Assembly (NCBI GenBank): GCA_017456805.1
Contig: JAFTIQ010000046.1
Span: 1 to 18,196 of the forward strand
Source of the DNA: Lentisphaeria bacterium
GTDB taxonomy: Bacteria; Verrucomicrobiota; Lentisphaeria; Victivallales; UBA1829
Length of the DNA: 18,196 nucleotides
Direction: 5' to 3'
The notes under the pieces are model-generated. The model was not told the DNA's origin and searched no databases. It saw only the letters and a list, made by a program, of their open reading frames with translations. The position numbers and the translations under genes were made by a program. Shown piece by piece: positions 1,513-17,998 of this stretch (positions are counted from its first letter, which is position 1; every line of letters starts with the position of its first letter).

Positions 1513-1542
1513 ACTTTCTGAAAAAACAACAGGTTATTCAGG

Positions 1543-1584
1543 CTGTGTTCTGTCTTTCAATAAGGACAGAACACAGTTTTTTTT
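1543..1584 (+). terminator. Rho-independent terminator after GH4 gene
   Basis: A perfect 12-bp stem, CTGTGTTCTGTC (1543-1554) with GACAGAACACAG (1565-1576), encloses a 10-nt loop and is followed by eight T (1577-1584). It lies 30 nt after the GH4 stop and separates this gene from the next transcription unit. Confidence 0.95.
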
Positions 1585-1587
1585 ATA

Positions 1588-1628
1588 TGATATTCGACGG
1601 AATATATCAATGCTGAATTTGATTGATA
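1588..1628. promoter_or_regulatory. Two adjacent small inverted repeats in intergenic region (possible operator)
   Basis: ATATTC-GACG-GAATAT (1590-1605) is a perfect 6-bp dyad. It is followed by TATCAAT (1605-1611) and ATTGATA (1622-1628), a perfect 7-bp dyad with a 10-nt spacer. The region is AT-rich, so chance is a real alternative. They sit about 115-150 bp upstream of the 1743 promoter. The rest of 1585-1742 shows nothing I can name. Confidence 0.25.
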
Positions 1629-1742
1629 ATAATTAAGATGCAACAAAAGCCTTCGATTTATGAAACGAACCCGCTTTGCTTCGTATTTTCCTGTATTTTC
1701 TGCTGTTTTGGATAAAAAATGTAAAATTTATAAAAAACACTC

Positions 1743-1770
1743 TTGAAAATTCCAAAAAAATTGATATAAT
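1743..1770 (+). promoter_or_regulatory. Sigma70-type promoter for the 1808-6273 gene block
   Basis: TTGAAA (1743-1748), a 16-nt spacer and a perfect TATAAT (1765-1770) lie 37 nt before the ATG at 1808. The 10-mer CTCTTGAAAA occurs twice, at 1740-1749 over the -35 box and at 1779-1788 in the presumed initial transcribed region, 39 bp apart. A direct repeat on both sides of a promoter core could be a regulator site, but no regulator is encoded in the window. Confidence 0.75.
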
Positions 1771-1807
1771 AGAGTTTGCTCTTGAAAAATTGGAGGAATA
1801 ACAGACA

Positions 1808-2956: not shown

Positions 2957-2965
2957 GGAAAAAAA

Positions 2966-3979
2966 ATGAAAGAAACTGTCAGATACGGTGTAATCGGGCT
3001 TACACATGGTCATGAACATGTGCAGGCGATCATGGAAAATCCGAAAGCAGAATTGATTGTCTGCTGCGACTTGGATGAATCGAAATTCCGGAAATTGAAT
3101 CTTCCGGGACAGGTTTTATTCACGAAAAATTTTGAAGATATTCTGAACATGCAGGATTTGGATGCGGTTGTTGTTGCCCTTCCGACTCCGCTGCATGCAG
3201 AATATTCCATCCGTCTTATGGAAGCAGGAAAACACGTTCTCTGCGAAAAACCCATTGCGGTCAACGTGGAGGAAGGTTTGAAAATTTGCGAAGCCGTAAA
3301 ACGGACTGGAAAGGTTTTCCAGCTGGGATACGAGGTCCGCTATTCCCACTTCCAGGAGAAAGTTCTTGAAGTTTCCAGAAGCGGCGATATCGGAAAAGTC
3401 ACAAATGTCTGGTGGAATATGTTCACCAAAAAAGCCAATGACGGCTGGCGCGCGAACAGGAAGCTCCGCGGCGGCAAGATTTTTGACTGTGCATGTCATT
3501 ACTACAATATTCTGGAAACCTGGGCGGGCGCACCTGTCAAACGGCTTTGTGCGTTCGGCAATCTGATCGGGAAAACCGGTCCCTGCGCCGATGAGATCCC
3601 GGAAACAGCAATTGTTATGTTTGAATATGAAAATGGTGTCCGGGGCGTTTTCAATCTCTCAGATTCCTGTCCGAATGTGCAGAGCTCCATCTGCGGAATT
3701 GCCGGAACAAACGGCAAGATTGATGCCGACCCGTATTATCCTTATTATGCAGGTTCCTTGAAAGTTCATGCACACGGCGGAAAGTATCAGACACAGATTG
3801 ATATTAAGGGTCCTGCATCCCCCAAACATCTTGGATTTGATGAACAGCATGACTCTTTTATCTCAGCGATCCTGCATGGAACCGAAGTGGTGGTAACAGC
3901 GGAACAGGGTGTTCAGGTCAATAGAATTCTGGATGCAATCGATCAATCGCTTGCAACCGGAAATGTGGTGGAACTGTAA
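2966..3979 (+). CDS. Gfo/Idh/MocA-family NAD(P)-dependent oxidoreductase
   Basis: This 337-residue protein has the two-domain layout of sugar or inositol dehydrogenases: an N-terminal Rossmann domain (about 1-120) and a C-terminal alpha/beta substrate domain. The hallmark E-K-P motif is at 94-96 with preceding Cys93, and the catalytic D-x3-H is at D174-H178, following GGKIF. The nucleotide loop reads VIGLTHGHEH (9-18) and lacks the usual G-x-G-x-x-[GA] pattern, so cofactor binding may be modified or the cofactor may be held tightly. The gene starts 9 nt after the previous stop, with AAGGA overlapping that stop codon, so the two are translationally linked. Substrate is unknown; by context it is a monosaccharide or sugar acid released by neighbouring enzymes. 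The members of this family that act as NAD-dependent glycosidases (GH109, GH179 types) are an alternative. Confidence 0.9.
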   Translation: MKETVRYGVIGLTHGHEHVQAIMENPKAELIVCCDLDESKFRKLNLPGQVLFTKNFEDILNMQDLDAVVVALPTPLHAEYSIRLMEAGKHVLCEKPIAVNVEEGLKICEAVKRTGKVFQLGYEVRYSHFQEKVLEVSRSGDIGKVTNVWWNMFTKKANDGWRANRKLRGGKIFDCACHYYNILETWAGAPVKRLCAFGNLIGKTGPCADEIPETAIVMFEYENGVRGVFNLSDSCPNVQSSICGIAGTNGKIDADPYYPYYAGSLKVHAHGGKYQTQIDIKGPASPKHLGFDEQHDSFISAILHGTEVVVTAEQGVQVNRILDAIDQSLATGNVVEL

Positions 3980-4049
3980 ATATTCTGTAATACAAAGGGA
4001 ACTGCCTTTTTCAACAAACAACATAGATATGAAAAACTCTGCATTTCAC

Positions 4050-4077
4050 TTGCAAATTATGATTCAGCATATATATT
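4050..4077 (+). promoter_or_regulatory. Candidate internal promoter before PHP gene
   Basis: TTGCAA (4050-4055), a 16-nt spacer and TATATT (4072-4077) lie in the 132-nt gap between the oxidoreductase and PHP genes. Both boxes are imperfect. The gap is much longer than the others in the block, which favours some regulatory content. Confidence 0.4.
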
Positions 4078-4095
4078 CCAAAAGTATGCTGAATC
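4061..4095. promoter_or_regulatory. Perfect 11-bp dyad upstream of PHP gene
   Basis: GATTCAGCATA (4061-4071) and TATGCTGAATC (4085-4095) are exact inverted repeats with a 13-nt spacer. There is no following T tract, so it is not a standard terminator. It overlaps the candidate -10 box and ends just before the AGGAG of the PHP gene (4101-4105). It could be an operator or a stabilising or processing hairpin in the mRNA. Confidence 0.6.
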
Positions 4096-4111
4096 TGAAA
4101 AGGAGAAACCT

Positions 4112-4774
4112 ATGAAAATAGATTTGCATGTACATACTTCAGATATATCCTTCTGCGGAAGACTTTCTGCGGAACAAACGATTTCGCTTTATCGGGAAGC
4201 CGGTTATGATGCAATCGTGATCACAGATCATTTTTCTGCAGAAAATGCAGATATGTGGAAGACTCACGGCGTTGATAACTTCACGGAATATTATTTCGAA
4301 AAACAGAAAAATGCGATCGAACTCGGCAAAAAACAGGGATTGCTTGTCCTGCCCGGATGCGAATTCCGGTTCAAAGGAAGCAGTAATGATTATCTGGTCT
4401 ACGGTTTGAATGAAGAACTGGTAAAGAATCATCCGGAAGTCTATGATATGACTCCTGACAGTTTTTCTGAATTTGCACAGGAAAACGGGATTCTTTTTTA
4501 TCAGGCTCATCCATTCCGGAACGGCATGAAAGTGATCAATCCGGCATTGCTCTTCGGGATCGAAGTCATGAACAATCATCCGCGCCATGACAGCCGCAAC
4601 GATATCGCGCTGTATTGGGCGGAAAAGTTCGGTCTGCACAAAATCGGCGGTTCTGATTGTCATCAGCTCGAAGATGTGGGAACAGCCGGAATTGAAACAG
4701 ATTACCCTGTTCAAACGATCAATGATCTGATCCATGTCCTGAAAAATGATCTTTATCAGATTTTCCATAAATAA
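4112..4774 (+). CDS. PHP-domain metal-dependent phosphoesterase-like protein
   Basis: This 220-residue single-domain protein carries all the expected PHP metal ligands: H-x-H at H6/H8 (DLHVHT), D39/H40 in ITDH, E84 in GCE, H133 in QAHP, E151 in GIEV, and D182/H184 in GSDCH. PHP domains form a distorted barrel with a tri-metal centre and usually hydrolyse phosphoester bonds. Stand-alone members beside glycan genes are common in Lentisphaerota and Firmicutes but are poorly characterised, so the substrate is unknown. No signal peptide is present. AGGAG at 4101-4105 precedes the ATG. It is followed 14 nt later by the TIM-barrel protein gene, suggesting co-expression. Confidence 0.88.
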   Translation: MKIDLHVHTSDISFCGRLSAEQTISLYREAGYDAIVITDHFSAENADMWKTHGVDNFTEYYFEKQKNAIELGKKQGLLVLPGCEFRFKGSSNDYLVYGLNEELVKNHPEVYDMTPDSFSEFAQENGILFYQAHPFRNGMKVINPALLFGIEVMNNHPRHDSRNDIALYWAEKFGLHKIGGSDCHQLEDVGTAGIETDYPVQTINDLIHVLKNDLYQIFHK

Positions 4775-4788
4775 AAAAGGAAAACATT

Positions 4789-6273
4789 ATGGCTTTTCTG
4801 CTGAATGAAGATTTTGAAAATTTCGCTGCACACCGTCCACTGGAAGAGTTGAGCGAATACGGAATCCGGAAACAATTGGATCTCTATTGCTCAGGTGGAG
4901 ATAATGTTCTTATCTTCAACGGGAACGGACAGAAAGCTGTATTCGACAGCGAAGTTTTTGACTCGCTCTGGAAAGATCTGGAAATCCGGGAAGATGGAAC
5001 CGTTTTCTACCGGGGGAAAGAAGTCATGGATTCGCCCCTCCCCTTCAAAAGCAATGCATTGCATACAAAAATACTGTTTGATAACGTGAAAGATCCCTTC
5101 GGACTGCGGATCGCTTACGGCAGAGAACTGGGCAGGAAAGTTTATCTCAGCATGAGAATGAACGATGTGCACTGGGTCGAAAATATCGACAGCACGATGG
5201 TCAGTGATTTCTGGCGGGAACATCAGGATTGTCAGACGGCTTCCTTTACAAATCCGGGACAATGGTGGTTTCACTCCTTCAACTATGCAAAACCGGAAGT
5301 ATATTCTTTTCATCTTGCACTGGTAAAAGAGTATCTGACCCGCTTTGATCCCGATGGATTGGAACTGGATTGGATGCGCACCCCCTATTATTTTGAATTC
5401 GGATGGGAAGTGGAAAATGCACCGATCCTGACGGAATTCCTCCGGGAATCCAGAAAATTGGCAGAGGAATGTGCCGAAAAGAATGGCCATCCGGTGGATT
5501 TGACCGTCCGTGTCCCGGCAGATCCGGATGATGCAAGACGGATGGGATTCAACGTCATAACATGGGTAAAAGAAAAGCTTGTTGACAGGGTCGTTCTCAC
5601 CTCCTATTGGGGCGTGACGAATTATGATATCCCGCTGGAACTCTGGCGGGCTCTTCTGGGCAATGATGTTAAAATCACTGCCGGTCTGGAAATCCTCTGC
5701 CGGTGCTCTCCAACCAATTCCGGTGACTGCATGAACGACAGTGCTGTTGTGTTCGGACATGCCGCCTCCTACTATTACCGGGGTTCCGACGATATTTATC
5801 TCTTCAACCACATGGATGCCTCAACAGGCATGAGAAACCTTGCTGAGTTCCGGAAAATTCTGGAAAATCTCGATGACAGAGAGAAAACCGAACGGCAGAA
5901 ACGGCGTCACCTTGTGACGTTTGAAGATTCATTGTCGAAAGCCGTCGGAAAAACTGCGGTATCACCGCTTCCGATGACTCTTTCTGCATGGCACAAACAG
6001 ATTCGTATCAACCTGGGCGGAAAAGTCAAAAACCGCAATGCAAAACTGATTCTTTCCTGCGAGAACGGACTCCCGGAAGATGTGCGCTGCGGGAATATGA
6101 TCTGTACAAAAACAGAGGAAACGTTTACAGACAAACTGCCCGGAAATGTCAAAAATCCTGTGGTATATCAGATCCCGGACGAGGCATTGAAAGAAGGCGA
6201 CAACGTTCTCAGCTTCCTTGGGGACAAGGTTGTCATCCATTGGTGTGAAATTGTTTTGGATGAAATGAAATGA
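4789..6273 (+). CDS. TIM-barrel glycosidase-like protein of unassigned family
   Basis: I do not recognise a defined family for this 494-residue protein. Its pattern is that of clan GH-A-like barrels: a strand SMRMNDVHW (121-129), then FDPDGLELDWMR (186-197) with acidic residues E192 and D194 at a strand end, TSYWG (271-275) and GLEILC (299-304) with E301. These acids are the natural candidates for catalysis. This resembles GHL10/DUF187-type hypothetical glycosidases. Residues about 385-494 look like a C-terminal beta-sandwich, with strands such as IRINLGG and KVVIHWCEIVL. No signal peptide is visible, so it probably acts on imported sugars. AAGGA at 4777-4781 is 7 nt from the ATG. It is the last gene of the plus-strand block and runs into the bidirectional terminator. 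Confidence 0.72.
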   Translation: MAFLLNEDFENFAAHRPLEELSEYGIRKQLDLYCSGGDNVLIFNGNGQKAVFDSEVFDSLWKDLEIREDGTVFYRGKEVMDSPLPFKSNALHTKILFDNVKDPFGLRIAYGRELGRKVYLSMRMNDVHWVENIDSTMVSDFWREHQDCQTASFTNPGQWWFHSFNYAKPEVYSFHLALVKEYLTRFDPDGLELDWMRTPYYFEFGWEVENAPILTEFLRESRKLAEECAEKNGHPVDLTVRVPADPDDARRMGFNVITWVKEKLVDRVVLTSYWGVTNYDIPLELWRALLGNDVKITAGLEILCRCSPTNSGDCMNDSAVVFGHAASYYYRGSDDIYLFNHMDASTGMRNLAEFRKILENLDDREKTERQKRRHLVTFEDSLSKAVGKTAVSPLPMTLSAWHKQIRINLGGKVKNRNAKLILSCENGLPEDVRCGNMICTKTEETFTDKLPGNVKNPVVYQIPDEALKEGDNVLSFLGDKVVIHWCEIVLDEMK

Positions 6274-6342: not shown

Positions 6343-9300
6343 TCAGCGGATGATCAGGCAGGCTGTTCCATCGGGGGCCAGCCGGAGACGGTATTTTCCG
6401 TTGCCGAGAGCTGTAACCGGAGTTTCGCTGGAAACGCTTCTGCCCTCCAGCAGAGAGGGATCGATCTCAATCACAGCGGAAAGGACATCCTTATCCGAGG
6501 GGTTGTAAACAGGCATCACGATTGCTCCGTTTTCTGCCCACGAAGCAAGGATTCTGCCATTGCCCTGAAGACGGATCAAAGGATGTTCTATCATTGCAGC
6601 GACCTCAGCAGCAGCATGTTCCATCAATTCACTGATGCCGTCTTTCGTGTATGCCATGCGGTCATGAAGCTGATCTTCTTTGACCAGATGGGGCGGAACG
6701 TTGAAAAATGCAGCACTTGCCTTTTCATTATGTTTGATTGTCAAAACGGGAATTTCTGCAGAGAGCAGGACTTCCGCGCCATCCGTTTCATAACGGCCGG
6801 TACAGCGTTCATCATCGCAAAACTCTTTCTTCTCCGGCATGAAGTGTTCCGTTCCGGAAACCCATGTGATGGTTTTTCTGATGCCTGTATCTTTAACACC
6901 GAAAAGATCTTCCAGTCCGGAGACATCTTCACAGCAAAGCAGGGAAACGCCTTCAGAATGAAGTTTGCGGATATGGGCAATGGTTGACTCTTCCATTCCT
7001 TTCAACGGAGGAAGAACAAGCAGGGAAAGATCATCTGCACTCAAACCAGGCAAATCTTTTTCCAGCACCTGGAACCCGGCACTCATTCCGTGAACACGGC
7101 AGCTCTTTGCAATGTAAGGCACATCTTCCGCCGCAGTATTCCGGACATCAATGATCCGGTATTGAGGATATTTGACGATCAGCATGAAATCCTTTGCCGC
7201 TCTGCGGGAATTGTCAGAGGAAACAAAAGCAGCCTTCCGGACAGGTTTGACCGGACGGTAATCCACCACGTTCCGCCACGCCATAAGCAGATTTTCATAC
7301 CACGCCTGGAAGAAACTGCATGCCTGGAATCCGCATTTTTCCCAGAAACGGAACCCGTTTGCAATGAAATGACCCGATCCATAACAGAACTCATAGACAT
7401 TCTTCAACATGCGCTGGGGATAAGAAACCGGGCGCTGTCCAAAGGGCGGATGTGCATAGTAAACAGCACCGTCCGGACACCCGGCAACTCCGCCGTCAAT
7501 ATAGATTTCCGGATAGAATCGTGCTCCGGGCAGAGTCAGAAGACTGGATGTCAGGAAATAACTGCCGCTGCAAAGTTCATAACGGCATGCGTAAGGATAA
7601 TCCTCAAATTGCCAGAAACCATCGGTATCTGTTGTGGCAAATTCGTTCTGAAGCACCCGGATGAATTCCGGACCTTTCAGGTTTGACGCATAGAGACATG
7701 CCGGACCGTACTGGGCAAATTTCAGGGTGGGATTGCTCTTCCGGAACTCCTGAAGAAGGTTCACTTTATTGATATAACTTTCCCGGTTGATAAAATCAAG
7801 CCACTCTTCCCAATAGTTTTCAGCAAGATAGATCAGGGTTGCGGCTTCGATCTGCCGGGCATTTTCCGCATAAAGTTTTTCCAGCTTTTCGACTTCCAAA
7901 CCATCATCGTTTTTCAGTTTTGCGAACTCAATGAGTTTCTTCAAAACAAAATCCCGGTAGGTGTAGGTCCAGTACAGAGGCTTCTGAACGATTTCATCGG
8001 AAATATTCACATAATCCGTTTCCTTGATCAGATCAAGGTTATCAGCAATCGCCGGGTTGTCGGCACAACGGCTGGAAAGCCAGACGAAATTCTCTCTTCC
8101 ATAGGCACGGACCGTGGGATATACCTGATATTTCCGCGCTGCCGGCGGCAGAAAGTTGGCACAGGAAATATAATGAGGTGCGTTGGCACTTTTTCCTTTC
8201 CAGGGATCAAAGGCATCGGTCATCAAACCGCGTGTTTCTGTCCGGGAGTTGTAAAGATAAGGCAATCCGGAAAGGATCGGCGGAGGCGGCGCACCGGCTT
8301 CTCTGGACATTACTTCGAACGCCCAGCGTTTCCGGAACATTTCCACACTGGAATCGGTATTTTCCAGATTCAAGTGCCAGACACCGCAGGCAAGATCATC
8401 CAGCTCTTCCAAAACAAGGGTCAATTCCGTATATTCCATGACTCCGATCTTGAAGGATTTGGAGTGCTGCGTATAGTTCAATTCCCGAACCGGACGCAGG
8501 AGAGCATCTTCCAAAGTGATCCTGCAATGTGCCGGGATCTGATCTCTGCCGGTCAGACGAACCTGAAAATGAGGGGCTTCTTTCTCAAAAAAGAAATGAT
8601 TGTTTTGTGCGAACTGAACAGCTTTTTCATAGCGCGGGTCAGATTTTGGCAGACGGGCGATGATCTCTTTATCGCTGCGGGAGAGCAGCTCCGGTTTCGT
8701 TTTCTCCGTGATCCCGAATCCGGAATAAAGGACATTTCCGTTCAAATCAAAAATCGTCTCCGACGGAATCTCAGCAAATTCCCGGTTCTGGGCGTGAATA
8801 TAACTGTCAAACCCGAATGCAAGATCAAATTTGGAATCGGGTTTCAGAAAACGGACTTTCCGGCGGAAGGGCCATTCCACTTTTTTTGCCAGAACTTTAT
8901 AGAAAAATTCATCTGCAAGCCCATCCGGGATCATCACGATCCGATCATTGTAAACGATGTGCTTACTGTAAGATTCCGGTTCAATGACTTTCAAATAAGG
9001 ATTGGTCAGCAAATCCGTGCGTCTGCCATGATAGCATCCTTCTCCAATGGGAGTTTCATGCACCCCCCCCCGCAATGAGAGGGAAACATCCATGCAGTTT
9101 CCATAATCTTCCAGCTCCACATCGCAGAACATGGGATAGTAGGAAGGGGCTTCTGAGACCGGGATCGTAAAAGAACGTTTGGCATTACAGACAAGCTCTT
9201 CATCCGTTTCAATGTCATAGGCAAGGATTCGCAGAACATCAAAAAAGTGTTCCCGGGCAATAGCGATTTTTCCTTTTCCTTCCGTGATCCGGAAAGAGAC

Positions 9301-9780
9301 ACTTTCCCCGAAACCTTTGACCGTTAAAGAGGTTCCGGAAATTTCAATTTGAAGTTCGAACGGTTTGTCGAGGGCGGAATCCGGAACGGAAATTTCTTTA
9401 GCTTCCGATTTTGTGAAAATGTTCCGCCGGACTGTTCCATACTCATAAACGACTGTTTCATTTTTCTGATTCCGGCTCATCCGCAAAGCCTGTCCCCTGC
9501 CCGTAACTGTATCATAACGGAACGAGGTCAAGAATGCGAAACCGCCTTCAAAATCATTTTTCGTCATGGAAAAATCAAAGGAAAGAACTGCTTTGACCAC
9601 GCAATCAGATACATCGGGAATCACCGGAAGGAATTTGTTTCCGGCAGAAAGCAATTCAATACATTTTTCACCGCAGCGGATTGCCGGAACGGCTTTCAAG
9701 TTTGAATTATTCTCTACATACCATCCGCCGGGGAGTCCATTGGAAACCGTTTCAAACGTTTCATGAAAAAGAGTCTTCAC
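6343..9780 (-). CDS. 1145-residue multidomain glycosidase-like protein (GTG start)
   Basis: I do not recognise a characterised homologue. Counting from the GTG start, residues about 3-190 look like a concanavalin/LamG-type beta-sandwich (ETFE at the start, repeated FELQIEISG- and SVSFRI-like strands). About 190-480 is beta-rich. A central alpha/beta region (about 500-830) with acidic, aromatic motifs such as FWQFEDYPY could be a barrel. Residues about 847-1000 resemble the GATase-like trimerisation domain of GH42 beta-galactosidases, ending in LSLLVLPP and VSLLCCED. The last about 80 residues are a small beta domain. No signal peptide. An ATG at 9840 overlaps the stop of the upstream gene and would add 20 residues, but AGGAG at 9788-9792 lies exactly 7 nt before GTG 9780, and the extra segment contains an intercistronic hairpin, so the GTG is preferred. 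A nine-G run (complement of 9063-9071) lies inside the frame. It is the last gene of the operon. Confidence 0.75.
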   Translation of the reverse strand: MKTLFHETFETVSNGLPGGWYVENNSNLKAVPAIRCGEKCIELLSAGNKFLPVIPDVSDCVVKAVLSFDFSMTKNDFEGGFAFLTSFRYDTVTGRGQALRMSRNQKNETVVYEYGTVRRNIFTKSEAKEISVPDSALDKPFELQIEISGTSLTVKGFGESVSFRITEGKGKIAIAREHFFDVLRILAYDIETDEELVCNAKRSFTIPVSEAPSYYPMFCDVELEDYGNCMDVSLSLRGGVHETPIGEGCYHGRRTDLLTNPYLKVIEPESYSKHIVYNDRIVMIPDGLADEFFYKVLAKKVEWPFRRKVRFLKPDSKFDLAFGFDSYIHAQNREFAEIPSETIFDLNGNVLYSGFGITEKTKPELLSRSDKEIIARLPKSDPRYEKAVQFAQNNHFFFEKEAPHFQVRLTGRDQIPAHCRITLEDALLRPVRELNYTQHSKSFKIGVMEYTELTLVLEELDDLACGVWHLNLENTDSSVEMFRKRWAFEVMSREAGAPPPPILSGLPYLYNSRTETRGLMTDAFDPWKGKSANAPHYISCANFLPPAARKYQVYPTVRAYGRENFVWLSSRCADNPAIADNLDLIKETDYVNISDEIVQKPLYWTYTYRDFVLKKLIEFAKLKNDDGLEVEKLEKLYAENARQIEAATLIYLAENYWEEWLDFINRESYINKVNLLQEFRKSNPTLKFAQYGPACLYASNLKGPEFIRVLQNEFATTDTDGFWQFEDYPYACRYELCSGSYFLTSSLLTLPGARFYPEIYIDGGVAGCPDGAVYYAHPPFGQRPVSYPQRMLKNVYEFCYGSGHFIANGFRFWEKCGFQACSFFQAWYENLLMAWRNVVDYRPVKPVRKAAFVSSDNSRRAAKDFMLIVKYPQYRIIDVRNTAAEDVPYIAKSCRVHGMSAGFQVLEKDLPGLSADDLSLLVLPPLKGMEESTIAHIRKLHSEGVSLLCCEDVSGLEDLFGVKDTGIRKTITWVSGTEHFMPEKKEFCDDERCTGRYETDGAEVLLSAEIPVLTIKHNEKASAAFFNVPPHLVKEDQLHDRMAYTKDGISELMEHAAAEVAAMIEHPLIRLQGNGRILASWAENGAIVMPVYNPSDKDVLSAVIEIDPSLLEGRSVSSETPVTALGNGKYRLRLAPDGTACLIIR

Positions 9781-9787
9781 ACCAAAT

Positions 9788-9792
9788 CTCCT
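9788..9792 (-). promoter_or_regulatory. Shine-Dalgarno site that fixes the GTG start at 9780
   Basis: On the minus strand AAAAGGAGA is followed by 7 nt and GTG. This is the best ribosome site in the junction; the ATG at 9840 has no comparable purine run upstream. Confidence 0.75.
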
Positions 9793-9799
9793 TTTAAAA

Positions 9800-9829
9800 C
9801 GAGAACACCGGAACATTTCCGGTGCCTCG
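9800..9829 (-). promoter_or_regulatory. Intercistronic hairpin, possible attenuator or processing site
   Basis: A perfect 8-bp stem CACCGGAA/TTCCGGTG (9806-9813 with 9817-9824) has a 3-nt loop and is extended by CGAG/CTCG (9800-9803 with 9826-9829). On the minus strand it is followed by TTTT and then the Shine-Dalgarno site. The short T run makes it at most a partial terminator, which could lower expression of the last operon gene. Confidence 0.6.
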
Positions 9830-9836
9830 CAGTTAT

Positions 9837-11213
9837 TCATTTTTTTCTCTTATCAAAGCTGATCAGAAACGCGGAGGATCCAACACCATTTTTGTAAAGA
9901 GTCAGTATCCCGTTATGGAACGACACATCGGCTCTGGTCATACTGTGGGTATGGTCCAGAATTTCAGCGGAGACGAACGCCCCGTCCATACCCTCCACTT
10001 TGATTTGCAGGGAAAGTGCATTGCTGCGGTAATCCGCAACCAGAAGCATCCCCGTTTCCCCATCTTCAGAAACTCCACCCTGAAGGTAAAGCGAATTCGA
10101 AAGGCTTTGACTCCTGATCTTCCGGTCGAAGCACCCCATCAGCTTTCCGAACATGCACATGGAGTAATAATTTTTATTATATCCGCCGAAATAATTCAGG
10201 TATCCCCAATCCCCAACAGGATTTGCTCCATAATAGAACGCGGATTTCAAGGGAGTTTCCTGCCATCCGCAAAGGACAGAAAGATTATACACCGCGGAAT
10301 CGATCCCGCAAAGACCGTTTGAGCTTTCCAGAGCCAGACGGCGTCCTTCTTCGCTCATGTTTCTCTGAATACCATCCCAGCTCACAAGATAGTGCCACTC
10401 TGTCACCGAAAGTTCACAATCCGGGAAACCTTCCTTCTGCAAAAATTCTTTCATTTTTGCCGGCTGTCCGATCAGAGAATCCGGGTTCGCTTCATAGCTG
10501 TGCCAGGAAATAAAATCCGGTGCGATTCCGGCTTCTTTGCAGGCCCGCAGGATCGGACCGATCAGATCCTCCCGGTAACCGGTAGCGGCAGGACCGCCGA
10601 TTTTCAGTTCAGGAAATTCAGATTTCAGCCGTTTCAGGACAATTACAAAGAATTTGATGAATTCTTCATAACTTCCTTTCCAGCAAGTCGGATCATTTTC
10701 CGCCTCGTTCCAGATTTCCCAATACTGCATATCGTAGTGGAAACCATTCGCCCATCCCTTCGTGTAATGCCGGATGATCCCGGCAAGGACTTCCGCATAT
10801 TTTCCGTAATCTTCCGGCGGAATCGAATTGAAATGTTTCTGTTCCGGACGGAGCCCGGAATGTTCAATACTGGTTCCGAGACGGTAGAAAACCTTGCTGC
10901 CAGCCTCTTGAGTGATCCGGATCATCTCATCCGTCGGAGCAAAATAATAGTTTTCCGGATCCGCCGGATCAAGGTGCATCAACGGAAAAATAAAATGCGT
11001 ATCCACTACGCGCTGACCATTGTTCCATAATGCCCAGTCGTGAGTCCGGGAATACTCAAAATTCATCCGCTGAAAATCAGGTGTAAAATCCCGGATTCCC
11101 CGGTTGGAGAGATTCGGCGCTGAATTAGAAGAATGCAGCGCCTTGTTGAACGCTCCCGTTACAGTCCGGAAATCAGCTTCCGCACAAAAAGGATTGAAAG
11201 GAATCTTTGCCAT
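9837..11213 (-). CDS. GH39-like clan GH-A glycosidase
   Basis: This 458-residue protein has the features of retaining clan GH-A enzymes. The acid/base is E170 in YWEIWNE after beta-4, the nucleophile is E272 in SVTEWHY at beta-7, and the substrate-site motif YSRTHD is at 54-59. The pattern matches the GH39 beta-xylosidase/alpha-iduronidase group best; GH39 enzymes remove xylose or uronic-type residues. Residues about 385-458 form a C-terminal beta-domain typical of such enzymes. No signal peptide is visible, so it is probably cytoplasmic. It starts 10 nt after the upstream gene, and the stop codon of that gene forms part of its TAAGG ribosome site, which suggests translational coupling. The substrate cannot be deduced from sequence alone. 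Confidence 0.85.
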   Translation of the reverse strand: MAKIPFNPFCAEADFRTVTGAFNKALHSSNSAPNLSNRGIRDFTPDFQRMNFEYSRTHDWALWNNGQRVVDTHFIFPLMHLDPADPENYYFAPTDEMIRITQEAGSKVFYRLGTSIEHSGLRPEQKHFNSIPPEDYGKYAEVLAGIIRHYTKGWANGFHYDMQYWEIWNEAENDPTCWKGSYEEFIKFFVIVLKRLKSEFPELKIGGPAATGYREDLIGPILRACKEAGIAPDFISWHSYEANPDSLIGQPAKMKEFLQKEGFPDCELSVTEWHYLVSWDGIQRNMSEEGRRLALESSNGLCGIDSAVYNLSVLCGWQETPLKSAFYYGANPVGDWGYLNYFGGYNKNYYSMCMFGKLMGCFDRKIRSQSLSNSLYLQGGVSEDGETGMLLVADYRSNALSLQIKVEGMDGAFVSAEILDHTHSMTRADVSFHNGILTLYKNGVGSSAFLISFDKRKK

Positions 11214-11223
11214 AAAGCAAACC

Positions 11224-12306
11224 TTACATTAAATCACCCAGAGAGGCGGCTCCGATGGATTTCTGCAATTTCCGAAGACGTTCCAGAGCCTGAGTATAAG
11301 CAGGAATATCATTCTTTGCTTTGGCATCTTCGTAAGCTTTCTGGATTTCAGCAAATTCCTTTTCAAACTTTGCTTTTGCATCGCCCTGAACACCGGCAAT
11401 CAGAGATTTTACCTGAGCCGCATTTTTGGTGAATTCAGAGAAATCAGGAGCTTTATCCCACTGGATAGCATCCAGACTCTTGCGGACAGTCGGAGCCTGT
11501 TCCACGAGGAAACGCTGCATAGCTTCTTCCGGATCCTGATTGGCAAAATAACCAAGAGCAAAATTCAATTCTTTGACCCCGGGTTTCGCATGGAAAAAGA
11601 TCGTCACAGGGTTTTCGGTATGCTGTGTGATCTTTGCAACCTTTTCAGATTCAAAGACAAGGAAGTTACCATATTTTTCATTGTAGTTCTTGCTGTAAAT
11701 CGCCATTCCGTCAACCTTGGGAGCAACCTCCATGGTGCGGACTTTGAAGAAATTGACAGGGGTATCTTTTCCATTGTAACGGATCCAGCGTTCGCGGCCC
11801 TTCACGGAAGTATGTGCTCCGCCGGGACGCAGCACGAGAGAGACATTTCTGACCCCTTCCGGAATGATCACTTTCACATACACCCAATTTGCTGCGCCGG
11901 AAGTCTGAAGAACTCTGATTTCTCCGTCTTTCCATACCATATTCGCACTGGAGCTGTCCGGAAAACGGACAAAGGAAACCCGTTCCGCAGGTGCGGATGA
12001 GGGAAGATCCGCAGATTTCATCCCTTTGGCAGCAATAAACTGCCAGATATCCCAGGAACCGTTGTAGATTGTTCCATGACGGAGTCCGAGGAAGAAATCA
12101 CCCCATGCTTTTTTCACGATTTTGCCATCTGCATCAAGGGTGATCTTCAAATTCATTTCGGAATGGTGAAACTTTGCAACCCACTCTTTCTGAGTAAGTT
12201 TTACACCTTTGCGGTCAATGACCTTCTCCGTCACCTTCATGGAAGGTTCCCGCGCAGAAAGTCCTGCCAAAATTGCGGCACATGCCAAAATTGCGAGTTT
12301 TTTCAT
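11224..12306 (-). CDS. Secreted protein of unknown function with C-terminal coiled coil
   Basis: I do not recognise this 360-residue protein. It begins with a clear Sec signal peptide (KK, a hydrophobic stretch 4-15, likely cut after the A of GLSA at 18). The body (about 20-285) is beta-rich with many aromatic residues (for example KFHHSEMNLKI, NGSWDIWQF, RERWIRY) and looks like a globular lectin- or sandwich-type domain, although no known motif is visible. Residues about 310-355 are charged and helical (KAKFEKEFAEIQKAYEDAKA) and predict a coiled coil that might mediate assembly or attachment. AAGGAG lies 10 nt before the ATG. It sits 21 nt after the GH42-like gene and 10 nt before the GH39-like gene, so a role with the exported enzyme, such as glycan binding or complex formation, is plausible but unproven. 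Confidence 0.8.
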   Translation of the reverse strand: MKKLAILACAAILAGLSAREPSMKVTEKVIDRKGVKLTQKEWVAKFHHSEMNLKITLDADGKIVKKAWGDFFLGLRHGTIYNGSWDIWQFIAAKGMKSADLPSSAPAERVSFVRFPDSSSANMVWKDGEIRVLQTSGAANWVYVKVIIPEGVRNVSLVLRPGGAHTSVKGRERWIRYNGKDTPVNFFKVRTMEVAPKVDGMAIYSKNYNEKYGNFLVFESEKVAKITQHTENPVTIFFHAKPGVKELNFALGYFANQDPEEAMQRFLVEQAPTVRKSLDAIQWDKAPDFSEFTKNAAQVKSLIAGVQGDAKAKFEKEFAEIQKAYEDAKAKNDIPAYTQALERLRKLQKSIGAASLGDLM

Positions 12307-12327
12307 CTTGCTTTAACTCCTTATCTG

Positions 12328-15300
12328 TTATTTGATATTGACTGTTTTTACAGTTGAAAGTCCGGTAACATAATCCGTGATTTTGAAAGTGTAAGTTCCT
12401 TTTTCAGCGTTATAGGGAACGCCGAAGCTGTACTGGGAAGCTTTGCTTGAGTCAAGCACAACACCACGTTCAAACATCTCTTTGCCATCCGGTCCGGTCA
12501 CGCGGATCACAACGGTACGGCCCGCCGGAATTCCTTTGAAATCAAGAAGCACATTTTCCCCGGTTCTGACCTGTGCAGGTGCACTCACTTCCGGAGCAGC
12601 CTGCTTCTTGTCAAACGCGGCATAAACATGCAGAGGTTCTTCTTCGGAGAAACGGACCTTGATGGAAGCAGCACGGCCAACCAGCCCTTTTCCCGACTCA
12701 TAAATATATTTCGGAGCAGGAAGCTGAACGGTCGTTTCGCTGTTGTTACGGTTGTTATAAACCCCGAGCAAAGTAAATCCGTTTCCGCTTCTGACACGGA
12801 AGACAGGTTCAGGATTGGACTGGAAGAAGGGGATCACTGCGCCATTTTTGACGAGCAGATTTCTCAGGAATCCGGCAAACGGAGTTGATTTTTCTGCCGC
12901 AGTTTCAATGATCGCAAAGTTAAAGTTCAGCAGGATCGCCTTTCCTTTGCCGTAAGTTCTGACTTCCATCGGTTTCCGGCTGGGATCGACCAGAGCTTTG
13001 GAAGATCTGAACCCGGGAATGGAGAGAGGCTTGATTTCATAGTTTTTGCCGGGGCCAAGCACCTGATTTCCAAACAGAGCAGCCAGGGGATTGCTCTTCC
13101 GGATCGCCAGATTTTCATTCAGTCTGGCAGGTGCAAAGTCTGCGATCACAACACCGCCCTTCTTCACAAAATCAAGGATATACTGAGCTTCCTTATCGCT
13201 CATTGCGTTAATCCCGAGCACGAACAGGACTTTCATCTTCGGAAGCCGTTCTGCGGCATTTCGGGCAGTCACAAACTCAAATCCGGCTCCGGACGCATTG
13301 CAGAAGCGGATCACAGGACCGATTCCGGATTCCGGAGAAACACACCGTTCATCCACTTTCGGAGAGCGGCGGGAAACATGGTTCCAGAAAATACCGATCT
13401 TGGAATCAAACATCGGATTGCCAACCAGGATCTGGGCTTTTCCGAACCGGAGTTCCTGAAGACTATCCATGAAGTTCTTGCAGAAAGAGGGAGAAAGGTC
13501 AACAGAAAGAATATCGTGATTATAGTCACATCCGGTTGCATACCAACCGTTTCCATTCACAGAACCAAGCAGCAGATAACGGTTCATCAACGGAGTCTTC
13601 ATGTTCCGTTCCTGATGATATCCGGACCAGACGAAACGGGGGACATCAGGATAAAGACTGCGCAGGACCTGATCTTCCAGCATATTGGAATAGGGACCCC
13701 ACCAGTCAAGGCCTTCCATCATCATTTCAATGTCGTGTCCGCCGAAGGTACCTTCCAGACCGACCCGTGCATGAGGATCCTTTGCTTTGATCATCTTTGC
13801 GGTATAATGGTGAATATCAGCAAACATCCGTTCCATATATTCATTGTGGTCGTTCCATTCCGCGAACCGTTTTTCTTTCAGGGAAACGGAAAGTTCACGA
13901 TGAGGCACTTCATCAAAGGAGGAGTAGGAGCTTCCCCAGTTTTCATTGAGTTTCGCAATCGTGCCATATTTTTTCGCAAGGAATTTCCGGAAAGCCGGCA
14001 GGTCGGAAGGTCCGAATCCGGCAGAGCGATTCAAGCCGTTTTCATCTCCAAGGCTGTAAAGAATCGGAGAGAGTTCCGGCAAGCCCTTCAAACGTTCTTC
14101 CACCTGCTTGGTCCAAAGTTCTTTGATCACAGGATTGTAGAAGCCCTGGTCCTGCATTTTGGAAGCTGTTCTGGCTTCGGGAGTGGTCAGGAACTGAAGT
14201 TTCACCCCGTTGCTGGAAGTTTTTCCCATATTAACACGGACGAGGTAAGGGAGTAACTGCACATTCAACTGAGCCAGACGGCGGCTGCTTTCGGGAGAAA
14301 GATGAGTCAGTGCAATGCCGAATCCGATATTATCCACAAGCTGATGCGCCATGTTCTGGCTGTGGGGATTTCCGAAAGTCGCCTGATAATACAGCGGAAG
14401 GATATCTGATGGGAAGTAAAGAACTCTGTCAGATTTCGCAATCATTCTGCCTTTTTTATCGGAGACGACAGCGTAGAGATAACCGGCTTCGTTGGGCATA
14501 CGGTAGTTTTTGAAGGTATGGGAAACAGATTTGGTTCCGGCGGGAACTTTGATCCGGATTTTTTCCCAGACTCTGTCATTGGGAGTATCCGCGAGACGCA
14601 GTTCAAGAACCACATCTTCCGCAGGAGCTTTTTCCAGGTTCACAGTTGCTTTGAAGGGAGCTTTTCCCCGGAGATATTCGGAAGAAACAGCAATCTCCAT
14701 TGCCCCGAGTTCCGATTTCCGTTCAAATTCAAAAACACTGCATGCTTTTCCTTTGACAATAATATCGCAGAAATATTTTCCGTTGGCGGCGATATCTGAA
14801 ACAGAAATTTTTCCATTCTGCGGAACTTTTCCTGTTCTGAGGATCTGATTGAACTCATCACGCAAACGGTACTGGGCACCGGCAGGAGCCGCAAGCCAGG
14901 AGCCATGATCGGTAACCGTTCCGGTAGACAGATCTTTTCCGGATGCCCACTGGATCGCACGGGTGAAGAAGACAAGTTCGTTTTCCTGAAGAGCCTTTGC
15001 ACGGTTTCCGGCGAGGGTATAGGAACGAGTGATTGCCGGATTGGCAACAGGATTCCGGATCACAAGGATCCGCCCTTTGCCGTACTGATAGGCTTTCAGG
15101 TCGCTCTCTTTATAAGAATTTGCCACTTCTTTCAGGAATCCGGGAAGCGGAATGGGATTCTGAAAGATCTTCTTGTAGGGCAAACGGGTTGTGGAAATGA
15201 TCATCCCTGCCCCGTTCTGAACTTTCTGAAGCATCTGAAGCTGAGCATCCGCAGGTGCTTTGACAAACGGAGCATTTCCGACAAAGATCACATCCAGATC

Positions 15301-15630
15301 CTGACCGAGCTTTGCCCGGAGCTCTTCATCCTTTTCAAAGGGACTCGTTCCGGAAAGTGCTGCCCGGTAAACGTTTTCTGATGCATAGGTATAATATGTC
15401 TGGGGCAGGAACGGAACATACTTGATATTCATTCGCTGGGCAAGTTCCAGCACATCCCGGGCTCCCGTCGGCTGGACAAAGAACAGAACATTCAGCTGCG
15501 GGGTCGTCTTGTCCCAGGTCAAATGTTCTGTTTTGTAATTTTCTGTTAATTCATTGACATACCAGCCGTCATGTTTTGCAAAAGAGACTGCGCTGGACAG
15601 CAATGCCGTGAATAATAGTACTTTTTTCAT
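12328..15630 (-). CDS. Large secreted GH42-like (beta-galactosidase-type) glycosidase
   Basis: This 1100-residue protein has a Sec signal peptide (1-18, cut near SFA/KHD). The central region (about 415-700) carries the GH42 hallmark helix: FRKFLAKKYGTIAKLNENWG (548-567) followed by SSYSSF. The preceding strand YSLGDEN places E530 as the likely acid/base, in place of the usual N-E pair. Flanking it are an N-terminal alpha/beta domain (about 45-230, GATase-like, with strands LNVLFFV and LDVIFVG), an Ig-like domain (about 300-405), a second GATase-like domain (about 740-880, with VLFVLG and GGVVIADF) matching the GH42 trimerisation domain, a beta domain and a C-terminal Ig-like domain (about 1020-1100). 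GH42 enzymes usually have about 650-700 residues, so this one is strongly extended. A GAGGG ribosome site precedes the ATG. It is the largest exported protein of the operon and probably acts on a complex external glycan. Confidence 0.82.
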   Translation of the reverse strand: MKKVLLFTALLSSAVSFAKHDGWYVNELTENYKTEHLTWDKTTPQLNVLFFVQPTGARDVLELAQRMNIKYVPFLPQTYYTYASENVYRAALSGTSPFEKDEELRAKLGQDLDVIFVGNAPFVKAPADAQLQMLQKVQNGAGMIISTTRLPYKKIFQNPIPLPGFLKEVANSYKESDLKAYQYGKGRILVIRNPVANPAITRSYTLAGNRAKALQENELVFFTRAIQWASGKDLSTGTVTDHGSWLAAPAGAQYRLRDEFNQILRTGKVPQNGKISVSDIAANGKYFCDIIVKGKACSVFEFERKSELGAMEIAVSSEYLRGKAPFKATVNLEKAPAEDVVLELRLADTPNDRVWEKIRIKVPAGTKSVSHTFKNYRMPNEAGYLYAVVSDKKGRMIAKSDRVLYFPSDILPLYYQATFGNPHSQNMAHQLVDNIGFGIALTHLSPESSRRLAQLNVQLLPYLVRVNMGKTSSNGVKLQFLTTPEARTASKMQDQGFYNPVIKELWTKQVEERLKGLPELSPILYSLGDENGLNRSAGFGPSDLPAFRKFLAKKYGTIAKLNENWGSSYSSFDEVPHRELSVSLKEKRFAEWNDHNEYMERMFADIHHYTAKMIKAKDPHARVGLEGTFGGHDIEMMMEGLDWWGPYSNMLEDQVLRSLYPDVPRFVWSGYHQERNMKTPLMNRYLLLGSVNGNGWYATGCDYNHDILSVDLSPSFCKNFMDSLQELRFGKAQILVGNPMFDSKIGIFWNHVSRRSPKVDERCVSPESGIGPVIRFCNASGAGFEFVTARNAAERLPKMKVLFVLGINAMSDKEAQYILDFVKKGGVVIADFAPARLNENLAIRKSNPLAALFGNQVLGPGKNYEIKPLSIPGFRSSKALVDPSRKPMEVRTYGKGKAILLNFNFAIIETAAEKSTPFAGFLRNLLVKNGAVIPFFQSNPEPVFRVRSGNGFTLLGVYNNRNNSETTVQLPAPKYIYESGKGLVGRAASIKVRFSEEEPLHVYAAFDKKQAAPEVSAPAQVRTGENVLLDFKGIPAGRTVVIRVTGPDGKEMFERGVVLDSSKASQYSFGVPYNAEKGTYTFKITDYVTGLSTVKTVNIK

Positions 15631-15651
15631 GAAAAGCCCTCTTCTGTTATA

Positions 15652-16683
15652 TTATTTGTAATATTTGTTCAGCAAAATATTCCATTTGATCCCGAACAGA
15701 ACACTGTTGGCATTCTGATAGGCACGGTAACGTGTCATGGGATCTGAATTTTTGACAGATTTGATATCTTTGCAAACTTTGGAAACATCTTTTGCAAAGC
15801 TCTTGCTGTCAATGGTTTCGATTTCCAGCAGATACAGTCTGTACTTGTCAGCTTCCGCTTTGACCAGTTCTGCAAGGACATCCATTTTCAGAACGCTGCC
15901 AGTACAGCTGACCAGGATATCTCCGCAGGGGATACACCAGGGAACAGCAGCTTTTGTTTGCAGCAAAGCACCGATCCGGGCGGGATCCAATGCCGTTTTT
16001 CCGTCGGAAAAATAGAGATATCCGAACTTGTCTGTGGCATTATAATTTCCGCCGGGCGAGGATGCCATACCGCGGAATCCTTTTGTCCAGGAAAAACGGG
16101 CATGACAGAATTGCCAGAGGGAACCCGATTTCGGCACACCGTTCAAATCTTCCCAGGGGAAAAAGGCTTCAATATACCAGGCATCTTTTCCGATGGAGGC
16201 AGCAGTCAACGTGCCGATCCCGTTCCAATCATTGAGCGAGACTGCGGCATCCATGCGGCGCATATCTGCAAAAGCACCGTTGGCATTAATGGTGATTTTC
16301 GTATAGCCGATCCCATTTGCAGCGGGGTCAAAATAGAATTCCCCGCAATCATCGGTCCAGATACTTCCATTATCATATTCTGAGATCGTCCGTTTCAAAG
16401 CCGGGATATTATCGTCATAATTCACAACTGCCATATAAAGCCCGGTTTCATCATAAACCATGCGGTAGGTTGTTTTCAAAGCTCCGGGTTTCGGATTGTT
16501 TTTCCAGTACTCATAATAATTCTGATGAACCGGGATTTTTTTCCAGGCATCTTCATCCAGCTTTCCATCGATTGTGATTTTTCCGATCCGGGGACGCACC
16601 TCGTAGAAGGAAAGTTCCCGCATCTGGCAGAACAATACACACGGAATCATCAGAAATCCCGCAACTGACAATAATTTTTTCAA
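15652..16683 (-). CDS. Secreted CBM9-like carbohydrate-binding protein (TTG start)
   Basis: The 343-residue product starts at a TTG. AGGAG (complement of 16692-16696) lies 8 nt before it, and the resulting N-terminus MKKLLSVAGFLMIPCVLFC is a textbook signal peptide. The longer GTG start at 16692 would overlap the Shine-Dalgarno site and is unlikely. After cleavage, residues about 28-230 show the CBM9/DOMON-like pattern KITIDGKLDEDAWKK, MVYDETGLYMAV, WTDDCGEFYFDP and AWYIEAFFPWEDL. These sandwiches bind sugars and often accompany exported glycosidases. The tail (about 230-343) is helical with scattered cysteines and has no known motif. The VLFC context is a poor lipobox, so ordinary secretion is more likely than lipidation. 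It lies 30 nt after the pseudopilin gene and 21 nt before the GH42-like gene. Confidence 0.83.
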   Translation of the reverse strand: MKKLLSVAGFLMIPCVLFCQMRELSFYEVRPRIGKITIDGKLDEDAWKKIPVHQNYYEYWKNNPKPGALKTTYRMVYDETGLYMAVVNYDDNIPALKRTISEYDNGSIWTDDCGEFYFDPAANGIGYTKITINANGAFADMRRMDAAVSLNDWNGIGTLTAASIGKDAWYIEAFFPWEDLNGVPKSGSLWQFCHARFSWTKGFRGMASSPGGNYNATDKFGYLYFSDGKTALDPARIGALLQTKAAVPWCIPCGDILVSCTGSVLKMDVLAELVKAEADKYRLYLLEIETIDSKSFAKDVSKVCKDIKSVKNSDPMTRYRAYQNANSVLFGIKWNILLNKYYK

Positions 16684-16691
16684 ATCAAACA

Positions 16692-16696
16692 CTCCT
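16692..16696 (-). promoter_or_regulatory. Shine-Dalgarno site that fixes the TTG start at 16683
   Basis: AGGAG reads on the minus strand from 16696 to 16692, then 8 nt, then TTG-AAA-AAA. The competing GTG (16692-16690) shares its first base with this site, so it cannot use it. Confidence 0.8.
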
Positions 16697-16713
16697 TGCT
16701 TTTTGATATCAGA

Positions 16714-17514
16714 TCAAAGCCCTTCAATGGTACTCTGACGTTTATCCGGTTTTTCCCCGCGGACAAACCAGGTGTTATTATTTGTTGAAACCGCTTTTCC
16801 GAAAGCTTCCCAGCTGGGGATTCTGTAAAAGGTTCTGTTTTCTGCATGACCGTCAAAGAAAACAGCATTTGCGGATTTATTATGAATGTAATTGGTCTGC
16901 AATGTATTTGTGGAATAGTTAACATCAACGGTTCCTGCTGCAACGGACCAAACGGCATGTCCCCAGTTTTCAACGGAAAGAGCCCCTCTGGAAGGCGCAG
17001 GGATCTGACCGATCTTCTGTCTTGCCTTATGATAGTACTGAGTTGTCTGTCCACGGATCGCATGATCATTAAGCCCGTATGTAAAGTTGATCCAGCTTGT
17101 GCCCTGGGCTGTTTTTGAACGGTCAATAATGACACGGGAAACAGGGCAGGCTGTAAGATTTTTATTAGCGGACAATTGATACGCATTGTACAAAGAAGTT
17201 TGAACATACCAATGTCCTTTATTCGGTTCTCCGCCATAAGAATGATACGCCGAGGGGGCAATATCATCATTATCGACAGCATACTGCAAATAAATACTTC
17301 CCTGTTGTTTGATATTGGAAAGACAATTGTTTTTCAGAGCGTTTGCTCTTGCATTGTTGAGAGCCGGCAGCAGCATCCCTGCAAGGATCGCAATGATTGC
17401 AATTACTACAAGAAGTTCGATGAGGGTAAAGCTGAACAGCTTTACCCGCCCATGGGCGGACCGGGTGGATTCAGTACGACGTATTTTTCTAAAGAAAAGG
17501 TCTTTCTGTGCCAT
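16714..17514 (-). CDS. Type II secretion-type pseudopilin, H-X9-DG family
   Basis: This 266-residue protein has a 28-residue leader, then the class III signal FTLIELLVV (from F29, with the essential Glu at mature position 5, E33) and a hydrophobic helix to about 49 ending in LPALNNAR. Prepilin peptidase would cut before F29; the usual Gly at -1 is replaced by Ser. The globular domain ends in the exact H-X9-D-G motif (H211 to D221-G222), typical of the very large pseudopilin families of Lentisphaerota and Planctomycetota (DUF1559-like group). Function in these families is unknown; they may form surface or periplasmic pseudopili, possibly displaying or exporting glycan-active proteins. AAGGA lies 8 nt before the ATG. 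It is the first gene of the six-gene minus-strand operon, which ties it to the exported CBM9-like and GH42-like proteins. Confidence 0.9.
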
Positions 17515-17544: not shown

Positions 17545-17739
17545 GAGGTAATTTCAAAAGTCCGGCAAAATTTGGTTGAAAAGAGATTGCTGATGAGCTG
17601 GAAATGGTAGTTTGAGCGTGGCTACTCAGCTTGTCCTCCGTAGCTTCAGCGAAGGAGGATGAGTAACCACCGAAAACGCTCCATTTTCAGATCTCTGCAA
17701 GAATTTTCAGACATTTTTGAAGACTTTTGAAATCACCTC
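17545..17739 (+). repeat. MITE-like palindromic repeat, complete copy 2
   Basis: This 195-bp element is bounded by terminal inverted repeats GAGGTAATTTCAAAAGTC (17545-17562) and GACTTTTGAAATCACCTC (17722-17739), matching at 17 of 18 bases. It is flanked on both sides by TGTA (17541-17544 and 17740-17743), a candidate 4-bp target duplication. The interior is an imperfect palindrome, for example TGGAAATGG..GGCTACTC against GAGTAACC..CCATTTTC, topped by a TCCTCC/GGAGGA hairpin (17634-17659). Read from the minus-strand promoter, it would form a long hairpin in the leader of the pseudopilin operon. It encodes no protein. Confidence 0.85.
17628..17659 (+). repeat. Apical hairpin module present only in copy 2
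   Basis: The 32-base module replaces 2 bases (60-61) of copy 1. It holds TCCTCC (17634-17639), an inner GCT/AGC pair around TC, and GGAGGA (17654-17659). Its exact presence or absence at the tip of the palindrome suggests it can be gained or lost as a unit. Confidence 0.7.
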
Positions 17740-17767: not shown

Positions 17768-17796
17768 ATTATACCACAATTTCAGCGATTTGTCAA
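17768..17796 (-). promoter_or_regulatory. Perfect-consensus sigma70 promoter for the minus-strand operon
   Basis: On the minus strand TTGACA (17796-17791), a 17-nt spacer and TATAAT (17773-17768) match the bacterial housekeeping consensus at all 12 bases. Transcription would start near 17761 and cross the whole repeat before the pseudopilin ATG at 17514, giving a leader of about 250 nt. The 407-bp stretch 17515-17921 between the pseudopilin and tRNA genes thus holds the repeat, this promoter, an AT-rich stretch (17797-17880) without recognisable features, and the tRNA promoter. Confidence 0.88.
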
Positions 17797-17921: not shown

Positions 17922-17998
17922 GCACTCGTAGCTCAATTGGATAGAGCGCCACCCTCCGGAGGTGGAGGTTGTGGGTTCGACCCCCGCCGAGTGCACCA
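17922..17998 (+). tRNA. tRNA-Arg (anticodon CCG)
   Basis: The full cloverleaf is visible: acceptor GCACTCG/CGAGTGC (17922-17928 with 17988-17994), D stem GCTC/GAGC, anticodon stem CCACC/GGTGG around the loop CTCCGGA with anticodon CCG, T stem GTGGG/CCCGC with loop TTCGACC, discriminator A (17995) and an encoded CCA (17996-17998). It reads the CGG arginine codon, which is frequent in the neighbouring genes. A run of eight T (17999-18006) follows directly and may help end transcription. Confidence 0.97.

Follow-up and report, generated by a model that had tools for sequence, protein, structure and literature searches.

The window studied here, an 18,196-nucleotide (nt) stretch of contig JAFTIQ010000046.1 from Lentisphaeria bacterium (assembly GCA_017456805.1), carries on its minus strand a row of six genes in which the gene of a pseudopilin-like protein leads a set of genes for carbohydrate-active and other proteins. 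Related gut bacteria carry about 100 pilin genes, often with the gene of a secreted protein next downstream, and the cluster of the window was found, together with its pilin, at further places in the phylum. With a probability of roughly 55%, the cluster pilins are satellite pseudopilins of a type II secretion system (T2SS), which would export or display the enzymes encoded in the same operon. At the level of sequence, this reading is supported by the operon itself, its recurrence, the wider pairing of pilins with secreted proteins, the likeness of the cluster pilins to each other and the co-occurrence of large pilin sets with the T2SS pseudopilin GspG. Co-transcription of the genes, processing of the pilins, their assembly into the T2SS and recognition of the enzymes are predicted from it, and a substrate-specific role of the pseudopilins is suggested by the phyletic and neighbourhood evidence.

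The pilin-led operon and its products

The six genes run from position 17514 to 6343 and encode, in this order, a pilin, a CBM9 protein, a GH42-like, a mutarotase-like and a GH39-like protein and a protein of 1145 amino acids (P1 to P6, all on the minus strand). The intergenic gaps are 21, 21, 21, 10 and 56 nt in gene order, in agreement with a sequence-only reading of the window, which had noted six genes on one strand with spacings of 10–56 nt. The last gap depends on the start of P6. An ATG at 9840 is possible and would give a 4-nt overlap with P5 and a protein of 1165 amino acids, but the homologues in loci L002 and L003 start about 20 residues further in, and the GTG at 9780, which is preceded by AAAAGGAGA, leaves 56 nt between P5 and P6; therefore, the spacing of 10–56 nt holds.

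P1 (16714..17514, 266 amino acids) is pseudopilin-like, with an N-terminal helix of the pilin type and an H-X9-DG motif (H211, D221 and G222). It scored above the cut-offs of PF07963 (N_methyl) and TIGR02532, which describe the N-terminal methylation motif and hydrophobic helix. The curated family TIGR04294 (H-X9-DG-CTERM) did not match P1 at E 0.1, nor did PF07596 (DUF1559); TIGR04294 was matched by two of the 20 aligned relatives of P1, and PF07596 is present in some distant relatives. The sequence-only description of the first product as an H-X9-DG pseudopilin is supported by the N_methyl match and the bare motif and not by the curated family. Cys64 and Cys123 are invariant in the 20 aligned sequences, an alignment which drew on 19 of the 120 listed relatives, 7992 having passed the threshold.

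The next three products, P2, P3 and P4, have signal-peptide-like N-termini, as judged here and below by our own hydrophobicity heuristic, and P5 and P6 do not. P2 (15652..16692, 346 amino acids, GTG start with an alternative TTG 9 nt inside it) matched CBM9_1 (PF06452) with 35 bits against a cut-off of 23.4. P3 (12328..15630, 1100 amino acids) matched Glyco_hydro_42 (PF02449) with 34.9 bits against a cut-off of 21, so that both the CBM9-like and the GH42-like assignment were supported, the latter by a match which spans only profile positions 115–233 of 376. Matches of P3 in the PDB were weak, the best being a beta-galactosidase (E 7e-4). Asp529-Glu530, Glu626 and Glu635 are invariant in 29 aligned sequences, and the catalytic Glu pair may be among Glu530, Glu626 and Glu635. 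P4 (11224..12306, 360 amino acids) is predicted to comprise a beta-supersandwich like that of galactose mutarotases, followed by C-terminal helices; mutarotases, rhamnogalacturonan lyases and mannosidases are among its fold neighbours, which share the fold only and point to no single substrate. P5 (9837..11213, 458 amino acids) matched Glyco_hydro_39 (PF01229) with 49.8 bits against a cut-off of 26, and, in the PDB, the glucosidase 5z3k (E 1.9e-23). P6 (6343..9780, 1145 amino acids from the GTG) has no Pfam match and has partners of 70–71% identity at the same position in L002 and L003. The last two products had been called enzymes without signal peptides; neither has one, and the term enzyme is supported for P5 and unsupported for P6. 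SusC and SusD had been reported absent, and indeed neither was matched among the eleven proteins of the window, the set that was scanned.

Recurrence of the operon in the phylum

Relatives of P4 are few (20 proteins); five loci were found, in Lentisphaeria/Lentisphaerae genome records, and none in viral contigs. Relatives of P3 are present in 24 of the 387 genomes sampled from the phylum, at 28 places, which together with L005 and the window make 30 loci, not all of them independent. All six frames of these loci were scanned with a profile of pilins, and a pilin was found inside the cluster in 13 of the 30. It precedes the CBM9 gene in the window, L064, L065, L067, L069, L081, L083 (partial, at a contig end), L084 and L088, stands between the CBM9 and GH42 genes in L066 and L068, and is represented by two tandem pilin-like genes without CBM9 in L085 and L086. 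The 17 loci without a pilin in the cluster comprise nine compact genomes, three contig-end cases and five true lacks. The compact genomes (L072–L080; GC 0.57–0.59) have 4–5 pilins each; P3 and P4 are encoded in all nine, and CBM9 was found at three of these loci (L072, L075, L076). Judging by their size, GC and likeness, we guess that they are Akkermansia-like and probably one clade.

The contig-end cases are L001, L002 and L003, whose contigs start about 140–160 nt ahead of the first gene. In genome G002, a pilin orthologue (72%) is found near the end of another contig, followed by CBM9 (78%) until that contig stops, and the remainder of the operon opens a different contig (L002). In G003, a pilin orthologue (71%) lies at the end of a contig other than that of L003, which is only suggestive. 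A failure of the pairing, as first seen from L001, L002, L003 and L005, none of which has an adjoining pilin, was overturned by the larger survey and the split contigs; L005 is a true lack, and L001 may or may not be one. The pairing of pilins with CBM9 and glycosidase genes, whose conservation the sequence-only reading proposed to check, recurs, and extends to other pilins, but does not hold for every locus.

Upstream of the cluster, a GntR gene was found at six of seven loci, the seven having been picked for a same-strand gene at this position. At L068, the gene ahead of the cluster encodes a BNR protein, and in the window, at L064 and at L088 no same-strand gene precedes the cluster; an upstream regulator is not universal.

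Genes around pilins and a probable link to type II secretion

Pilin-rich genomes contain from 59 to at least 150 pilins each, and the 16 of the main set have from 76 to at least 150 pilin N-termini. The genes around these pilins were surveyed in 100 regions from 15 genomes and compared with 20 background stretches. The regions were those of the best-scoring pilins on lists ranked by motif score, which favours Gly at position −1, and were chosen without regard to neighbouring genes, except that the cluster already known from G002:C31 and several of the listed pilins close to the ends of contigs were passed over. Several regions contain more than one pilin, and orthologous regions of related genomes were counted repeatedly. 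In total, 137 pilins were found (133 in survey loci, 4 in the background), 131 of them with a next gene. This gene is on the same strand and within 150 nt for 106 of the 131 pilins, as compared to 146 of 259 background genes. Of the 88 directly downstream genes in the survey loci that are not themselves pilin genes, 72 have a secreted-looking product, against 57 of 285 background genes (Fisher p 6e-26, overstated because of the repeated counting of orthologous regions), with a median gap of 21 nt. Pfam families in the 88 downstream genes are DUF4838 (19), CBM9_1 (10), Laminin_G_3 (10), GH67 N-terminal (8), GH123_N (5) and others. None of those named was among the 25 commonest of the 221 families in 120 background downstream genes, where Gfo/Idh and epimerases are commonest and any family outside the 25 may account for up to two of the 120. 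The DUF4838 proteins, the commonest direct neighbours, may be secreted glycosidases of a type yet to be characterised. On the upstream side, 14 of 53 complete non-pilin same-strand genes next to pilins match GntR and 11 match LacI, which speaks for control of these operons by sugar-sensing regulators.

The cluster pilins resemble each other more than pilins at large. Their likeness was measured by BLAST scores after removal of the first 35 residues from the motif start. The set comprised those cluster pilins that are intact, 12 in number without the partial L083 sequence, of which nine representatives were kept once near-duplicates had been removed. The mean score among the nine was 51.8 bits, compared with 23.9 bits for sets drawn at random from the 137 surveyed pilins; one of 5000 such sets reached the mean of the cluster pilins. 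Three background pilins recurred as best matches, two from L121 and one from L105. The L121 pair sits in a further pilin-pilin-CBM9-GH42 cassette, which came from the survey chosen by pilin motif score; the L105 pilin adjoins a downstream DUF4838 protein gene and not a CBM9-GH42 cassette. As a separate observation, short broken pieces of a pilin N-terminus lie at 4440–4750 of L004, directly ahead of an intact pilin gene, and are perhaps the remains of a pilin duplication that decayed.

GspG was found above cut-off in all 16 genomes with 76 to at least 150 pilins and had no match at 1e-12 in any of the nine compact genomes. Among 40 further genomes, it was above cut-off in all seven with at least 50 pilins, which brings the genomes of this pilin content that have the T2SS pseudopilin to 23 of 23 examined. 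In all seven pilin-rich genomes that were checked for them, the genes of GspG, a secretin and a PF00437 ATPase lie close together on one contig. A link to the T2SS fits the phyletic pattern.

Role of the pilins, related systems and flanking elements

In the mechanism that we propose, the locus would be one of about 100 operons of its lineage that combine a pilin with a secreted protein. The operon would be switched on by a LacI- or GntR-type regulator that senses sugar and whose gene, not present in the window, is often the next one upstream. Its first or second product would be a satellite pseudopilin, of which each glycan operon would have one or two, followed by carbohydrate-active proteins exported by Sec. 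The pseudopilin would be processed and built into the pseudopilus of the genome's T2SS, and its variable C-terminal domain would recognise the enzymes of its own operon. A given glycan would thereby call up enzymes together with the matching pilus part, which would move them through the outer membrane or display them there. Tentatively, and as a rather doubtful generalisation, a single T2SS may be served by some 100 exchangeable, substrate-specific pseudopilins, each with its own sugar sensor and enzymes, which select the cargo for the outer membrane.

Several observations weigh against the satellite pseudopilin reading. The core operon occurs without a pilin in the nine compact genomes, which keep P3 and P4 while lacking GspG, and at five loci of pilin-rich genomes (L005, L070, L071, L082, L087), where the P3 gene has no adjacent pilin; at L082 a same-strand pilin gene lies upstream, at a distance of several genes. 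Because these five loci keep P3, the pilin is not indispensable. Since the compact genomes probably form one clade, few independent events would underlie the correlation of pilins with GspG. GspG was also above cut-off in 18 of the 33 further genomes with fewer than 50 pilins, and thus accompanies the expansion of pilins without ensuring it. In G025, the one compact genome tested, PF00437, secretin and prepilin peptidase matches are present. The tandem pilins of L085 and L086 fall outside the family of the cluster pilins. The counts of GntR and LacI regulators upstream of pilins stand without a background control. P1 itself scored far below the cut-off of GspG (TIGR01710; 26.9 against 88.85 bits) and far below those of GspH and GspI. 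Finally, the residue before its cleavage site is Ser and not the usual Gly, and Gly was found at this position in 54 of the 133 surveyed pilins and missing in 79, with S, C, A, H and others in its place.

The missing Gly and the compact genomes, with their core operon free of both pilin and GspG, would be expected if the pilins were unprocessed inner-membrane scaffolds which tether periplasmic enzymes or act as sensors outside any pilus. We regard this as unlikely. Gly at −1 is usual but not demanded by the curated pilin models, which P1 passes, and it is present in none of the 20 pilin-like frames listed beside GspG (L209–L215), which is why the peptidase may not need it; its absence is common to the satellite pilins and to those encoded near the T2SS genes, and the prepilin peptidase of the lineage may have another specificity. 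Moreover, Phe at +1 is kept in 131 of 133 surveyed pilins (Glu at +5 in all 133, as demanded by the search pattern). A somewhat better candidate, though still doubtful, is a pilus for glycan capture, in which the pilin is part of a surface fibre, its C-terminal domain binds the glycan of the operon in the manner of SusD and retraction delivers this glycan to the enzymes. Pilin genes neighbour those of CBM9 and LamG binding modules, the C-terminal domains of the pilins go with the operon, and the seven pilin-rich genomes have 6–13 PF00437 matches, among which the retraction type was not distinguished. Capture had been the core of the sequence-only reading, of which the link to a pilus or T2SS is in keeping with the phyletic pattern and capture is one of several possible roles.

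It is also conceivable that the neighbourhood has no function and that the abundant pilins are hitchhikers, carried along as operons duplicate and are transferred. The pilin is missing from some loci and varies in position (before CBM9, between CBM9 and GH42 or in tandem), and miniature inverted-repeat transposable elements (MITEs) are common around the region. Against such a chance association stand the high share of secreted-looking next genes at short distance, the family likeness of the cluster pilins and the published occurrence of a pseudopilin in an alginate-induced cluster (PMC13274419), which together make it very improbable.

Glycan-specific operons with a regulator, binding proteins and secreted and cytoplasmic enzymes, many per genome, are known as SusCD-type polysaccharide utilisation loci of Bacteroidota. 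The operon of the window has a similar make-up, but it is led by a pseudopilin and, as far as the scanned proteins of the window go (whole genomes were not searched), has no SusC/SusD. The type II pseudopilins GspG–K have an N-terminal helix of the pilin type; P1 shares this helix and differs in its low scores and in being encoded with enzymes, whereas GspG of seven related genomes is encoded elsewhere, beside secretin and ATPase. The DUF1559 (PF07596) and TIGR04294 families of the Planctomycetes, Verrucomicrobia and Chlamydiae group likewise form large sets of paralogues, some with a pilin-like N-terminus, and P1 matches neither. DUF1559 is described as unknown or solute-binding in the accessible text of three papers (PMC2754498, PMC4807772, PMC10632474).

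The closest published case is the alginate cluster pgaptmp_000046-60 of Verruconatronum alginivorum (Opitutales), which holds the pulG-like pseudopilin pgaptmp_000050 with 67 homologues in the genome (PMC13274419, 2026; here and below, as far as its available text goes). In proteomics with one replicate per treatment, the cluster was induced by alginate, as was another pseudopilin, and the authors proposed export of the alginases by a T2SS (PMC13274419). As in the window, a pseudopilin is encoded amid carbohydrate-active proteins; unlike there, these are secreted alginate lyases and not CBM9 and GH42 proteins, and the host belongs to the Opitutales. The available text deals with this cluster by itself; it neither surveys the genes next to pilins nor describes a regulator-pilin-enzyme pattern. 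Restriction of the system to Lentisphaerota-like bacteria, as first suggested, appears too narrow in view of this cluster and of the pilin-rich genomes found among genomes drawn evenly from the GTDB phylum of G003. Laminarin raises secretion-system genes in Lentisphaerae strains, the system type not being stated in the accessible part of the paper (PMC11361711). No publication on a general regulator-pilin-secreted-enzyme pattern was found in the literature searched, whose coverage leaves out most subscription journals.

If the generalisation to one T2SS with some 100 exchangeable pseudopilins is true, much of Lentisphaeria/Verrucomicrobiota would follow a logic of glycan use parallel to SusCD. 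Large sets of pilin paralogues have no settled function in the literature found, and the layout of regulator, pilin and secreted enzyme offers a testable one. It also hints at the way in which polysaccharide breakdown is organised where, as in the operons studied here, SusCD is missing, and prompts one to ask how a T2SS selects its cargo. As a practical handle, the pilin would flag an operon and aid the prediction of enzymes of unknown families such as DUF4838.

Upstream of the operon, a putative sigma-70-type promoter (TTGACA-N17-TATAAT with a TG before the −10 element; 17768..17796, minus strand) was identified by its 12/12 consensus match only. Between it and the pilin gene lies a MITE of 195 bp (17545..17739, minus strand), which is flanked by a 4-bp duplication (TGTA) and would be part of the operon's 5′ untranslated region as a long hairpin; a slightly longer stretch folds at −79 kcal/mol (z −9.5). 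Of 24 full copies, 17 are flanked by duplications of at least 4 bp, as against a mean of 1.3 and at most 6 copies after shuffling; the duplications span 4–6 bp, and the ends of the element read GAGGyAATTTC. Four related genomes have 59, 65, 63 and 42 matches, with 40 candidates per genome scored. A conserved leader RNA, as which the hairpin had been considered, was ruled out by the target duplications and many copies; the hairpin is a MITE for the same reasons and is, therefore, not counted as part of the system. Positions 1–141 of the window are part of another copy, and the contigs of L001, L002 and the window all start inside the MITE. A second inverted-repeat-like stretch was seen by eye at 1–160 of L003 and 1–147 of L219, by the end of the pilin and ahead of CBM9 in G003, and is perhaps another mobile repeat that separated the pilin from CBM9.

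A tRNA-Arg gene (CCG; 17922..17998, plus strand) lies just upstream of the promoter. At the other side, a convergent operon-like row on the plus strand (175–6273) encodes GH4, BNR sialidase-like, Gfo/Idh and PHP proteins and a 494-amino-acid protein (weak GHL10), all without signal peptides; in L082, a GH4 gene whose product is 63% identical to that of the window adjoins the CBM9-GH42 pair.

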